From positions 1 to 64,000 of the forward strand of contig DATIPS010000014.1 in the NCBI GenBank assembly GCA_035471805.1: a stretch of 64,000 nt of DNA. The letters run 5' to 3'. Shown here one piece after another: positions 8,517 to 60,568 of the stretch (position 1 is its first letter; every line of letters begins with the position of its first letter). A program made the position numbers and the translations under genes. The notes under the pieces are model-generated. The model worked only from the letters and a program-made list of their open reading frames with translations, did no database searches and was not told the DNA's origin. Source of the DNA: Acidimicrobiia bacterium (lineage in GTDB: Bacteria; Actinomycetota; Acidimicrobiia; Spongiisociales; JAHEDJ01).

Positions 8517-8954
8517 GTGAAGCACGTCTATCAATCACCCGATCTCAAGTCGCGCGCTCTTTGGGCGGGCGGTTTTGTGGTCTTGGTGATTGTCGGGTTC
8601 TCCATATTCACCCCCACGCTCGGGCGGAGGGTGGGGCTCTGGGTAGTTGCGGTGGCGGTGATCGCCTATTTCCGGCTCATGGCGAGTTCACGTGTTGAGG
8701 TCGACGGATCCGATGTCACGGTTATCAACTATGCCCGGCGCCGTCGGGTCCGCCGCGAAGACATCATCGAATGCGGTATGGACACCCGCCCGCTGGTCGG
8801 ACCGGTGGGTCGACTGCGGATGCGGGACGGATCGTCGATCTATCTGTACGGGCTGCAACCGCGACGCGAAGCAGGCGACGACACGTTGCGGAGTGATGAG
8901 TTGGCGGCGCTCGCACTGTCGATCGGTTCCGGCGGTCCCATGAGACCTTCCTAG
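8517..8954 (+). CDS. Membrane protein with bacterial PH-like domain
   Basis: A 145-residue protein. Two hydrophobic helices (about residues 14-33 and 41-60) are followed by a cytoplasmic domain with the pattern VEVDGSDVTVINYARRRRVRREDI, typical of short actinobacterial bacterial-PH-domain membrane proteins. Function is unknown. The GTG start at 8517 is chosen because AGGAG at 8505-8509 is well spaced; a TTG at 8511 is in frame but too close. It reads toward lgt, 46 bp away, and the two may be cotranscribed. Confidence 0.65.
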   Translation: MKHVYQSPDLKSRALWAGGFVVLVIVGFSIFTPTLGRRVGLWVVAVAVIAYFRLMASSRVEVDGSDVTVINYARRRRVRREDIIECGMDTRPLVGPVGRLRMRDGSSIYLYGLQPRREAGDDTLRSDELAALALSIGSGGPMRPS

Positions 8955-56433: not shown

Positions 56434-56506
56434 TCCGGGGTAGCTCAATTGGCAGAGCGCCGGACTGTTAATCCGTAGGTTGTGGGTTCAAGTCCCACCC
56501 CCGGAG
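56434..56506 (+). tRNA. tRNA-Asn (GTT)
   Basis: A 73-nt cloverleaf: acceptor TCCGGGG/CCCCGGA, D arm AGCTCAATTGGCAGAGC, anticodon loop CTGTTAA (anticodon GTT), T arm GTGGG TTCAAGT CCCAC, discriminator G. CCA is not encoded. Its 3' half is duplicated at 58221-58257. Confidence 0.96.
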
Positions 56507-56552
56507 CGAAGGTGAATCCCCTGTATTTGCAGGGGATTTCGCTCATTTCGGG
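56470..56552 (+). repeat. 83-bp direct repeat, left copy (inside intact tRNA-Asn)
   Basis: From the anticodon loop of tRNA-Asn through its 3' end and downstream hairpin. It is identical to 58221-58303 except C at 56530 versus A at 58281. The spacing is 1751 bp. Typical layout of an attachment site at a tRNA gene. Confidence 0.93.
56515..56538 (+). terminator. Terminator of tRNA-Asn
   Basis: AATCCCCTG, loop TATTTG, CAGGGGATT: a 9-bp perfect stem 9 bp after the tRNA. The duplicated version at 58266-58289 has lost the closing G-C pair. Confidence 0.75.
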
Positions 56553-56679
56553 TTTTCTGGCCGGGACGGACAGGACACCAATCTGCGGCAACTTCCCTCT
56601 CGTCAGCCGCGATGGACTTCATTGGGAATCGTCTGTCCGGTCTGGCCGGTGTCCAGGGGGTGGGGGAGGTGGCTGGTGA

Positions 56680-57516
56680 CTAGTCGAGGGTCGAGACCGT
56701 GAGAACTTCGAAAGCGACGGGCAGTGCCCCATAGCGCAGCTTGACGGACAGGTCCTCGGCTTCCTGCTGGGACGACACGGTGATGACCGCCACCCCACCG
56801 GTGATACCTTCGTCGGACGTCACCCACGGCGCTGACAGGATCACTCCGTCGAGGACTATGGCAATGCGGCGGCGAGGATCAACGTACAAGTCGTATTGGG
56901 CAGACTCCCTCGTCATCGCCTCGAAGGCCCCGGCACCGGCGGAATCGAACGTGAGTTGGATAACCCACTGGTCGGCGGTCGAGTCGAACAGCGGTGTCGC
57001 CTCCGATATCTGAGCGCCCGTCAGTGAGGTCGCACCTACCAGAAGGACTTCGTCGACCACCCCGTTTCCCGCATGGGACGCCAGCCAAGCAGACGTCGAC
57101 GGGTGGTCTGTCATGGTCAATCCCGTGTCAGGATCAACCCTCTCAACGCCACCGGACTCCTCCTCACTTCCTGTGGGGTCCCGTTGATCAAGTACTGGCC
57201 GAAGGGACAGCAGGCCGGGCACGGCAATCAAGTCGACTGCTCTCTGGTGATCAACCTCACCCGTCAGGCTCACCGTGAGATTTCGTTCACCCGACCATTC
57301 GATTTCGGCTTCCGTGACTCCCGGCATCGACTCGACCCTCGTCTTGATGATTCCGATTGCCTCATCGAGTGACTCCGCAGGGGTGCCTTCCGGGGCCACA
57401 AGTTGAATCGAAACCCCAGCCCCGTCTATTCGAGCACTCGGCTCGGTTGAACCGCTACCGCCACAAGCCCCAACCCACAAGGACGCCCCCAGTATCAAGC
57501 AGACCGGACGTCTCAT
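56680..57516 (-). CDS. Stand-alone SecD P1-head-domain lipoprotein
   Basis: A 278-residue lipoprotein. The signal MRRPVCLILGASLWVGAC has its lipobox at V-G-A-C. The mature part reproduces the large periplasmic P1 domain of the protein-export factor SecD: base segment GVSIQLVAPEGTPAESLDEAIGIIKTRVE, then the head with LTGAQISEATPLFDS, VIQLTFDSAGAGAFEAMTRE, IAIVLDGVILSAPWV and ITGGVAVITVSSQQEAEDL, ending at the point (LRYGALPVAFEV) where SecD would enter its next helix. There are no transmembrane helices, so it cannot act as SecD itself. The start at 57516 is supported by GGAGG. It lies inside the tRNA-Asn mini-island. The function of such isolated P1 proteins is unknown. Confidence 0.85.
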   Translation of the reverse strand: MRRPVCLILGASLWVGACGGSGSTEPSARIDGAGVSIQLVAPEGTPAESLDEAIGIIKTRVESMPGVTEAEIEWSGERNLTVSLTGEVDHQRAVDLIAVPGLLSLRPVLDQRDPTGSEEESGGVERVDPDTGLTMTDHPSTSAWLASHAGNGVVDEVLLVGATSLTGAQISEATPLFDSTADQWVIQLTFDSAGAGAFEAMTRESAQYDLYVDPRRRIAIVLDGVILSAPWVTSDEGITGGVAVITVSSQQEAEDLSVKLRYGALPVAFEVLTVSTLD

Positions 57517-57565
57517 ACGGACCTCCACTCGTATGACAAGCCGTGTGCCGGGTCGCCCCATCAGG

Positions 57566-57598
57566 ATGCCTCTATCCCTTTGAACGGACTAGAGGCAT
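57566..57598. promoter_or_regulatory. Inverted repeat upstream of the SecD-P1 gene
   Basis: ATGCCTCTA (57566-57574) and TAGAGGCAT (57590-57598) are perfect reverse complements around 15 bp, located 50 bp upstream of the lipoprotein start. It may be an operator, or a terminator for the small upstream gene. The remaining bases from 57599 to 57811 show nothing I can assign. Confidence 0.45.
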
Positions 57599-57811
57599 AC
57601 GACCCTCAACCTCCTCGACGACCCCTAGCAGCCACCCCGCTGAGTTCGCTCGGTCGCCACACCTGAAGGGCAGCTCCACCGTCGAAACCAGCCTGGGGAT
57701 TTCTGTTCGCTGGGTACCGCCCCGGTTATGCAGTACGAGCACCCCATCGGATGAATGACGGCTGGAAGGCCGGCACCCGGTTGTCGATAACCCCCACCCC
57801 GAGCAAGATGG

Positions 57812-58000
57812 CTACACAGCCTGGTCGGTAGGTGTTGAGGTCTCGGACGGTTCGCGGGTTCCAACCGAAACCCGAATAGGGAAGGCAATGGGTTGGTCAA
57901 AGCCGACCAACGACTGTGTTCGGTCGGCGGTCTTGTCGCTAATGGCTAGGAAGACGAAGGAGAGTGCGTATACAACGAGTATTCCAAATACGATTGTCAT
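57812..58000 (-). CDS. Small membrane protein of unknown function
   Basis: A 62-residue protein starting MTIVFGILVVYALSFVFLAI, one N-terminal helix, then a polar tail rich in Ser, Thr and Pro. AGGGG five bases before the ATG supports the start. Not recognised. It is upstream of the SecD-P1 gene on the same strand, about 300 bp away, and inside the mini-island. The 220 bp between it and the right repeat contain only short dyads (for example TGCCCG...CGGGCA at about 58091-58114). Confidence 0.5.
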   Translation of the reverse strand: MTIVFGILVVYALSFVFLAISDKTADRTQSLVGFDQPIAFPIRVSVGTREPSETSTPTDQAV

Positions 58001-58220
58001 CAGAACCCCTATCGGTGCAGCCCCCTCTCAGATTCAAGGGTTGGGCCTTAGGGGCGCCGCTGGGGGAGGTTAAGTCGGCGATAAGGCCACCTGCCCGTTT
58101 GCTCGACGGCGGGCACTGGCCCGACCTGGAGACGATCCGGGGCGGATGAGTGGCTCCGATGGCAGCGCGCTGGCAGCCGAGCCGCATAACGCCAGTTCAC
58201 AGCACCGACGGCGGATAGGC

Positions 58221-58303
58221 AATCCGTAGGTTGTGGGTTCAAGTCCCACCCCCGGAGCGAAGGTGAATCCCCTGTATTTGAAGGGGATTTCGCTCATTTC
58301 GGG
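58221..58303 (+). repeat. 83-bp direct repeat, right copy (truncated tRNA-Asn 3' half)
   Basis: It starts in the anticodon loop and carries the variable and T arms, acceptor 3' strand and downstream hairpin of tRNA-Asn, but no 5' half. It is not a functional tRNA. One mismatch to the left copy. Confidence 0.93.
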
Positions 58304-58451: not shown

Positions 58452-59111
58452 ATGAAAGACCCCAGCTGGACCGCCGTCGATTACTACCTCGAGAGCCACC
58501 TGACCTCCCACGACGGGGACGCAGCCGCGGTGTTGGCGGCCCAGAGGGCCGCCGGGTTTCCGGACATCGCCGTCAGCGCCACCCAGGGCAAGCTGCTCGC
58601 GGTCCTCGCCCGTTCCGTCGGCGCGCGCAGGGTGCTGGAGTTCGGGACCCTCGGCGGCTATTCGACGCTGTGGCTGGCCCGGGCTCTCCCGGAGACAGGC
58701 GTCGTCGTATCTCTTGAGATGTCGCCCGCGCACGCAGCGGTAGCGCAGGCGAGCCTCGACACGGCCGGGGTCGGCGACCGGGTGGAGATACGGGTGGGTC
58801 CGGCGCTCGATAGCCTTCCGGGCCTGGCGGATGAGGATCCCTTCGACCTGGTCTTCATCGACGCTGACAAGGAGAACGGGGTCGCCTACTTCGAGGCCGC
58901 TGTGGGTCGAACGAGGCCCGGGGGTCTCATCATCGTCGACAACGTCGTACGAGAGGGACTGGTGGCTGACGAAGCGTCGACCGATAGCCGCGTCCAGGGC
59001 TCCCGCAGGGTCATCGAGTTTGCGGCCCACGATCCCCGGGTCGAGGCGACCGTCATTCAGACCGTCGGCAGGAAGAAGCACGACGGGATCCTCATCGCCG
59101 TCGTCCTCTGA
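58452..59111 (+). CDS. Class I SAM-dependent O-methyltransferase
   Basis: A 219-residue enzyme of the metal-dependent catechol/caffeoyl-CoA O-methyltransferase family: SATQGKLLAVLARSVGARRVLEFGTLGGYSTLWLARALP (SAM motif I), VVSLEMSPAHAAVAQ, FDLVFIDADKENGVAYFEAA (metal Asp) and LIIVDNVVREG. It methylates a catechol-like or polyketide hydroxyl; the actual substrate is unknown. It is the first gene after the mini-island and reads toward the ole cluster, but is separated from it by about 430 bp. Confidence 0.9.
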   Translation: MKDPSWTAVDYYLESHLTSHDGDAAAVLAAQRAAGFPDIAVSATQGKLLAVLARSVGARRVLEFGTLGGYSTLWLARALPETGVVVSLEMSPAHAAVAQASLDTAGVGDRVEIRVGPALDSLPGLADEDPFDLVFIDADKENGVAYFEAAVGRTRPGGLIIVDNVVREGLVADEASTDSRVQGSRRVIEFAAHDPRVEATVIQTVGRKKHDGILIAVVL

Positions 59112-59205
59112 TGGGAACGTGATTGGGGGCCATGGATGTGCCGAAGTGGCACACCCTGGGCACTCGGCGGTTCGGAACGGTCTCATCCCGGTAACCTGCT
59201 CCTTT

Positions 59206-59418
59206 ATGAAAAGGGCAGCCGGCTGGACATTGATCGGAATCGCCGCCTGGTTCGGCCTCGGCGTCCTGTTCGCGGCAGGGTCCATTGTTTCCGGCAACAC
59301 CGGTCGGCCCGGAACCGAGGTGTCGACCGGGACTGCGCTTCTCGCTGCTGCGACTCTCGCGGTCTTCGCATGGACCTTGATCAGAGTCGGACTGCGCCTT
59401 CTCAAATCCGATGAGTGA
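59206..59418 (+). CDS. Small two-helix membrane protein
   Basis: A 70-residue protein from ATG 59206 with two hydrophobic helices (about residues 5-25 and 42-62) and a short basic C terminus. It has no recognised family and only a weak ribosome site. It is kept because a clean start, two well-formed helices and a gap between flanking genes make it plausible. The 130 bp that follow hold no gene and probably the oleA promoter. Confidence 0.45.
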   Translation: MKRAAGWTLIGIAAWFGLGVLFAAGSIVSGNTGRPGTEVSTGTALLAAATLAVFAWTLIRVGLRLLKSDE

Positions 59419-59548
59419 CCGCCGGACGGCGGTGAGACTCGGGCAATCACAGGTGGGCTCGTCGGGCGATGGCTGAGTTCGGTTCCCTATTCCACAATCC
59501 ATCAGTTTCCTGCGAGAATCATCCGCAGTTCACCCGCGAAGGATTCCG

Positions 59549-60568
59549 ATGCCCGGCAACGCCACTTTCGATCTGACCGACACCGCCATAGTTTCCGTCG
59601 CGCATGTTGACGCACCTGAAGTGGTCCCATCGTCCCGCTTCGACGAGATTCTGGCCGAGACCTATGAACGCGTCGGCGCCCAACCGGGTCTACTGGAGAC
59701 GCTCGCCGGCATTCGAGAGCGGCGCTGGTGGCCTGAAGGTCATCTCTACACGGATGCGGCGGCCGCAGCCGGGGCCAAGGCCATCGAAGCCGCCGGGATC
59801 CGCGTCGACGAAATCGGTCTCCTCATCGACACCTCGGTTTGTCGCGATCGACTCGAACCGTCGTCGTCGGTAACGGTTCACAACGCTCTGGACCTGCCGA
59901 GCTCGTGCCTCAGTTTCGACCTGTCCAATGCGTGTCTCGGCTTCGTCAACGCCCTGCAGCTGGCCGGGAACATGATCGACAGCGGCCAGATCGACTACGC
60001 CCTGATCGTCGACGGTGAGGGAAGCCGTGCCGTCCAGGAACGGACACTGGAGAGGCTTGCCGGCGCCGAAGCGACATTGGCCGACCTGTTCGCAGAATTC
60101 GCCACGTTGACGCTCGGGTCTGGAGGTGCTGCCGCGGTGATCGGGCGGCACTCCCAGAACCCCGGCAGTCACAAGATCGTCGGTGGGATCGCCAGGGCCG
60201 ATACCGCCTACCACAGTCTTTGCGTTGGCGACCTCGACGGGATGCGCACAGACACGAGCGCTCTGCTGGATGCCGGTCTGCAAGTCTCCAAACTGGCCTG
60301 GGGTGATGCTGCAGAGCGGGACTGGCTCGACCTCGACCGCTACATCCTGCATCAGATTTCACAGGTGCACACGACGATGCTGTGCGAAGCGCTCGGGATC
60401 GATCTCGGCAAGGTCCCGCTGACCTTCCCCTTCCTCGGCAACGTCGGCCCTGCGTCGATCCCCATCACGCTTTCCCTCGAAGCCGACTCACTTCGCGCAG
60501 GAGAGCGGGTGCTGTTGATGGGGATCGGGTCCGGAATCAATGCATCGGCGATCGAACTGATCTGGTGA
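59549..60568 (+). CDS. oleA: OleA, acyl-CoA head-to-head Claisen condensing enzyme
   Basis: A 339-residue thiolase-fold enzyme, KAS III-like. Catalytic Cys129 (SNACLGF), His268 (LHQISQVHT) and Asn298 (GNVGPAS) form the family triad, and the OleA-type Glu in C-R-D-R-L-E-P is present. OleA joins two fatty acyl-CoAs to a 2-alkyl-3-ketoacid, the first step of long-chain olefin synthesis. AAGGA lies 6 bp upstream of ATG 59549. The stop overlaps the GTG of the fused oleBC, so the cluster is translationally coupled. Confidence 0.92.
   Translation: MPGNATFDLTDTAIVSVAHVDAPEVVPSSRFDEILAETYERVGAQPGLLETLAGIRERRWWPEGHLYTDAAAAAGAKAIEAAGIRVDEIGLLIDTSVCRDRLEPSSSVTVHNALDLPSSCLSFDLSNACLGFVNALQLAGNMIDSGQIDYALIVDGEGSRAVQERTLERLAGAEATLADLFAEFATLTLGSGGAAAVIGRHSQNPGSHKIVGGIARADTAYHSLCVGDLDGMRTDTSALLDAGLQVSKLAWGDAAERDWLDLDRYILHQISQVHTTMLCEALGIDLGKVPLTFPFLGNVGPASIPITLSLEADSLRAGERVLLMGIGSGINASAIELIW

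Follow-up and report, generated by a model that had tools for sequence, protein, structure and literature searches.

Several described systems come close to the segment considered here. Cis-mobilizable elements (CIMEs) are decayed ICEs or IMEs that retain attL and attR (PMC5704250), Dehalococcoides has ssrA islands without an integration module (PMC3146451), and tycheposons are cargo islands with a tyrosine recombinase, 4–200 kb in length (as described in PMC10872708). Islander rejects islands that are <2 kb or devoid of an integrase (PMC4383910), and a search of the literature on integrase-lacking tRNA islands returned no match.

The present locus lies within a window of 64,000 nucleotides (positions 1 to 64,000 of contig DATIPS010000014.1, assembly GCA_035471805.1) from an Acidimicrobiia bacterium whose genome, referred to here as G000, is a draft of 70 contigs that was analyzed from the assembly. 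There is good reason to think that a 1751-bp segment of the window, the Asn islet, is a CIME-like remnant of a tyrosine-integrase element that inserted in the anticodon loop of a tRNA-Asn gene and has since lost its recombination genes. Like a CIME, the islet is bounded by two att-type repeats at a specific target, the 3′ end of a tRNA, and contains no integration or transfer genes by ORF analysis and Pfam; it differs in being much smaller than usual islands, and its descent from an ICE or IME and any mobilization in cis or accretion are putative. No relic of an ICE or IME ancestor lies inside it; pieces of larger islands do recur in a sibling islet at tRNA-Thr. The Dehalococcoides ssrA islands are similar in being strain-variable cargo islets bracketed by repeats of an RNA-gene 3′ end, at a site where islands with an integrase insert as well, but they involve a serine recombinase and the T-loop site of tmRNA rather than a tRNA anticodon-loop site. 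Islander-type islands share the intact tDNA with a downstream 3′ fragment in the same orientation, as well as the anticodon subsite; however, Islander requires an integrase and a length of at least 2 kb, and such islets would be missed because both filters reject them. The islet also resembles a tycheposon as a cargo island at a tRNA gene, but it carries no tyrosine recombinase and falls below the 4–200 kb range.

The earlier note on this DNA had reported 83-bp direct repeats with one mismatch, the left one inside an intact tRNA-Asn and the right one a 3′ fragment, both beginning in the anticodon loop, and these observations were borne out by repeat search, blastn and ARAGORN (Table 1). The repeats are identical at 82 of 83 positions at a spacing of 1751 bp (98.8% over 83 bp, E=6e-37 by blastn, far beyond chance), and the repeated block starts one base 3′ of the anticodon (56467–56469 by ARAGORN), extending through the last two loop bases, the 3′ stem, the T arm, the acceptor end and a further 45 bp that include a terminator-like hairpin. 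The tRNA itself is the only Rfam match above gathering score, with a sub-threshold tRNA match over the right repeat at 58194–58249. The sole mismatch, C at 56530 versus A at 58281, falls within the right hairpin (folding energy −17.2 kcal/mol, against −20.5 kcal/mol for its left counterpart). A tRNA-Asn fragment in the congeneric genome G003 has the C of the left copy, which makes the A private to the right copy, and the right copy is therefore the one that drifted. A weaker likeness (7/12 positions) extends the right repeat back to 58209 and keeps the CGGA/TCCG pairing of the anticodon stem around a different loop, and it is possible that CGGA opposite TCCG marks a candidate core half-site of the recombinase. 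Because the two repeats are nearly identical, integration may have been fairly recent, although gene conversion could also have kept them so. The GC content of the islet differs little from that of its flanks.

Table 1. Features of the tRNA-Asn locus, in window coordinates.
Feature	Position	Strand	Evidence or remark
Intact tRNA-Asn(GTT)	56434..56507	+	Integration target, putatively regenerated; ARAGORN; Rfam RF00005, 71.6 bits
Left 83-bp repeat (attL-like)	56470..56552	+	tRNA-Asn 3′ half and downstream hairpin; repeat search, blastn
Terminator-like hairpin after tRNA-Asn	56511..56543	+	Fold; slightly broken duplicate at 58262-58294
Imperfect palindrome, 100 bp	56554..56654	n/a	Sequence comparison, fold
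Cargo gene, predicted lipoprotein, SecD P1 domain, 293 aa	56680..57561	-	Pfam
Noncoding stretch	57598..57748	n/a	Short pieces common to other genus loci, G001:C29 and G001:C48; sequence comparison
ORF of 62 aa, one apparent membrane span	57812..58000	-	Coding status uncertain
Inner right end	58161..58234	n/a	74% identical to G001:C29:3069-3142
Imperfect 5′ extension of right repeat	58209..58220	+	Repeat search
Right 83-bp repeat (attR-like)	58221..58303	+	Displaced tRNA-Asn 3′ fragment and hairpin; repeat search, blastn
O-methyltransferase gene	58452..59111	+	Just beyond right repeat; Pfam, homology search, GC
Conserved right flank: 70-aa membrane protein and OleA-like ketosynthase	59165..60568	+	Directly after tRNA fragment in G003

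This anatomy is what would be expected if a tyrosine integrase had inserted an element into tRNA-Asn at its anticodon loop. The incoming element would have carried a tRNA 3′ half and terminator of its own, which rebuilt the gene and became the left copy, while the chromosomal 3′ part would have been pushed rightward to become the right copy. Integrase, replication or transfer genes would subsequently have been lost by deletion or by content exchange among islands at tRNA sites, so that little more than attL, attR and about one cargo gene was left; some ability to excise might remain. The absence of an integrase claimed in the earlier note holds for the whole contig, as PF00589 hits in a profile search of this genome fell only on other contigs, and no mobile-element gene is left within the islet.

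Elements that do carry an integrase use the same site in five other genomes of the order. An integrase frame lies 14–119 bp 3′ of tRNA-Asn, facing the tRNA, in G015, G017, G019 and G021, and in G029 such a frame starts ~0.16 kb downstream and points away; in G007 a 47-bp fragment follows the tRNA-Asn after 7.58 kb in which PF00589 gave no hit. These occurrences establish that tRNA-Asn is used for integration. Over the parts available, the Asn integrases of G015 and G021 match integrases at tRNA-Lys in G021 and G028 with 89–96% identity, and one integrase family thus serves both tRNAs. A third, T-arm-only tRNA-Asn-like fragment lies inside the G007 islet (C61 1382–1419) and perhaps marks the boundary of a tandem element.

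The genus set consisted of five genomes, two of them <90% complete, and among the genus genomes compared an empty tRNA-Asn site was not found. In G003, the 3′ end of tRNA-Asn is exactly where contig C24 stops; on contig C70, a 3′ fragment of tRNA-Asn (466–543, from the anticodon stem) is followed by DNA equal to the window from 59165 onward. In G002, 10.7 kb of unrelated genes separate tRNA-Asn from OleA and a second tRNA fragment was not found; the same interval measures 7.5 kb in JANTHO010000028.1, an Acidimicrobiia MAG. About nine G003 tRNAs lie <50 bp from a contig end, the contig mostly stopping on the tRNA 3′ side, as would be expected if assemblies break at tRNA-site islands or where strains are mixed, and contig C29 of G000 also ends one base past a tRNA. 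At the start of G002:C25, tRNA-Met-like 3′ fragments at 9–51 and 8531–8597, ~8.5 kb apart, enclose metabolic genes on a contig without a PF00589 hit. Both this locus and G001:C29 begin within a tRNA at a contig end, and as tRNA-bracketed islands they are suggestive only.

Displaced 3′ fragments were also sought near the Rfam-found tRNAs of G000 itself, as far as ~17 kb downstream or the contig end, a reach that larger islands may escape. At tRNA-Thr(TGT) on C58 a fragment of 65 bp (88%) lies ~1.25 kb downstream, at tRNA-Leu(GAG) on C19 a weak fragment of 45 bp (84%) lies 6.1 kb downstream, and for tRNA-Val(GAC) on C10, which has a C-terminal piece of an integrase beside it, a fragment of 78 bp (86%) was found on C68. 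The profile search gave no PF00589 hit inside the Thr or Leu intervals, and the contig of the Thr islet has no integrase. The Thr site is empty in G003, where a single tRNA-Thr runs straight into the right flank. Stretches of the Thr islet recur in G003, 73 bp (82%) at the right end of the Asn element there and up to 236 bp (83%) in the tRNA-Ala region, and a tRNA-Thr fragment in G002:C85 matches the islet's right end. The tRNA-Val island seems to extend from C10 into C68: the inner ends of the two contigs share sequence from ~C68:470, and the Val fragment occupies C68:13420–13494. Positions 1–470 of C68 form a different junction, with the start of a cyclase-like gene and a 100-bp palindrome.

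A CCAGGTCA-like pair spaced exactly 30 bp apart occurs in four island right ends (G003-Asn, G000-Thr, G002-Thr and G028-Lys), which count as about two independent cases because three of the four ends are related sequences; such pairs are plausible as putative arm sites of a recombinase. The other six right ends examined have no such pair, and that of the Asn islet, which is among the six and resembles only G001:C29, has only CCAGTTCA at another spacing; with the 30-bp-spaced pair absent, the islet was not assigned to this integrase family.

That the segment is an element integrated at a tRNA, as the earlier note proposed, is thus well supported by the use of this site in relatives, by the five genomes with an integrase by tRNA-Asn and by the Thr sibling with its empty counterpart in G003. 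Its description as unusually small is apt when judged by Islander's lower limit of 2 kb; but the genome also has the Thr islet of ~1.25 kb, and smallness has therefore arisen here more than once. Very small integrase-free islets can therefore be recognized from partial duplications of a tRNA and checked against an empty site in a relative, and with at least two in one genome, counts of remnants of this sort may be too low.

The cargo was described in the same note as two envelope-associated genes, of which one is convincing and the other shows little sign of coding; the islet carries one solid gene, encoding a probable lipoprotein of the SecD P1 domain. The protein (whose start may instead be the ATG at 57516) bears a lipobox-like signal, LWVGAC, and both the P1 head and the P1 N-terminal domains (SecDF_P1_head 4e-23, SecD_1st 3e-8), and its nearest solved structures are those of SecDF (3aqo, 3aqp). 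It stops after P1 and has no C-terminal transmembrane channel part; the frames of relatives run to ~460–840 aa. In 59 genomes it is the sole stand-alone P1 form found, all other matches lying in long SecD-type frames except for one that a contig end truncates. Its P1 region shares 54% identity with the SecD of its own host and 48–53% with the SecD of four genus relatives, and its long branch falls within the genus clade (FastTree; clade support 1.0, inner placement weak). A scan of genome contigs found no close relative of it. It has the appearance of an export-motor periplasmic domain that was copied and turned into a lipoprotein, an unusual cargo and a candidate export modulator; that it modulates Sec export is a guess. 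The islet genes gave no match in PADLOC.

The second proposed gene, an ORF of 62 aa, lies within a 341-bp segment (57747–58087) that is 80% identical to G001:C54, and the differences in the ORF are spread over the codon positions as 7, 10 and 13, which is little coding signal. The palindrome near the left repeat has copies upstream of cyclase-like genes in two genomes, with 90% identity on G000:C68 and 76% on G001:C54.

The earlier note had left decay and mobilization in trans side by side. Decay is favored because the Thr islet holds scraps of larger islands and because no integrase lies beside any tRNA-Asn copy in the assembly. It is unlikely, in our judgment, that the islet is instead a minimal cargo element that is still mobile, never had an integrase of its own and is moved by the integrases of other elements, even though the near identity of attL and attR and a SecD-like reading frame that stayed intact despite much divergence would both fit such a history. 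An agent for it could exist, since this genome has homologues of the integrase family found at tRNA-Asn in relatives, one at tRNA-Ala (35–37% identical to those of G019, G028 and G015) and part of one at tRNA-Val, a C-terminal piece 84% identical to the Ala integrase. However, the islet sequence is single in the genome, no other genus locus was found to have its interior as one unit, viral contigs gave no match to the exact 38-bp att sequence, and this genome has no integrase by another tRNA-Asn copy. A bolder version, in which cargo-only islets of ~1.2–1.8 kb would form a standing class moved between tRNA genes in trans by shared integrases, one of them with a lipid-anchored SecD P1 acting on host export, strikes us as improbable.

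Loss of genes from one integrated element must also be weighed against a mosaic, in which repeated exchange between tRNA-site islands would have brought in the present contents after the original integration. The islet does have short segments of 75–90% identity in common with C68, G001:C54, G001:C29 and G001:C48, which are islands or cyclase-associated loci, and G001:C54 has the small-ORF segment beside a palindrome copy without the SecD gene; yet stretches this short may be no more than common regulatory or remnant sequence, and a direct donor was not found, so that we give this history little credence. The fragmented draft state of the genome might raise the concern that the tRNA 3′ end was duplicated illegitimately, or by the assembly, with no site-specific recombinase involved. 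This is very improbable indeed, given that the repeat begins at the classic integrase position, that the right copy has a private mismatch, that G003, an independent genome, also has part of a tRNA-Asn next to this right flank, and that tRNA-Thr presents the same anatomy with an empty site. A CIME-like remnant is the reading that we retain, with several points against it: the lack of an empty tRNA-Asn site among the genus genomes compared, of any mobile-element gene within the islet and of the 30-bp-spaced pair at its right end, a GC content close to that of the flanks, and the draft state of the genome.

The variable region extends beyond the bracketing 83-bp repeats. The O-methyltransferase gene that follows the right repeat lies in DNA of higher GC than its surroundings (0.70 at 58500–58999), has no close relative in four genus genomes and is absent from the G003 junction, and it is either a second insertion or was lost in G003. 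It is not called a defense gene here, as its PADLOC match to mad2 (6e-16) covers only 126 of 492 profile positions and probably reflects a shared methyltransferase fold.
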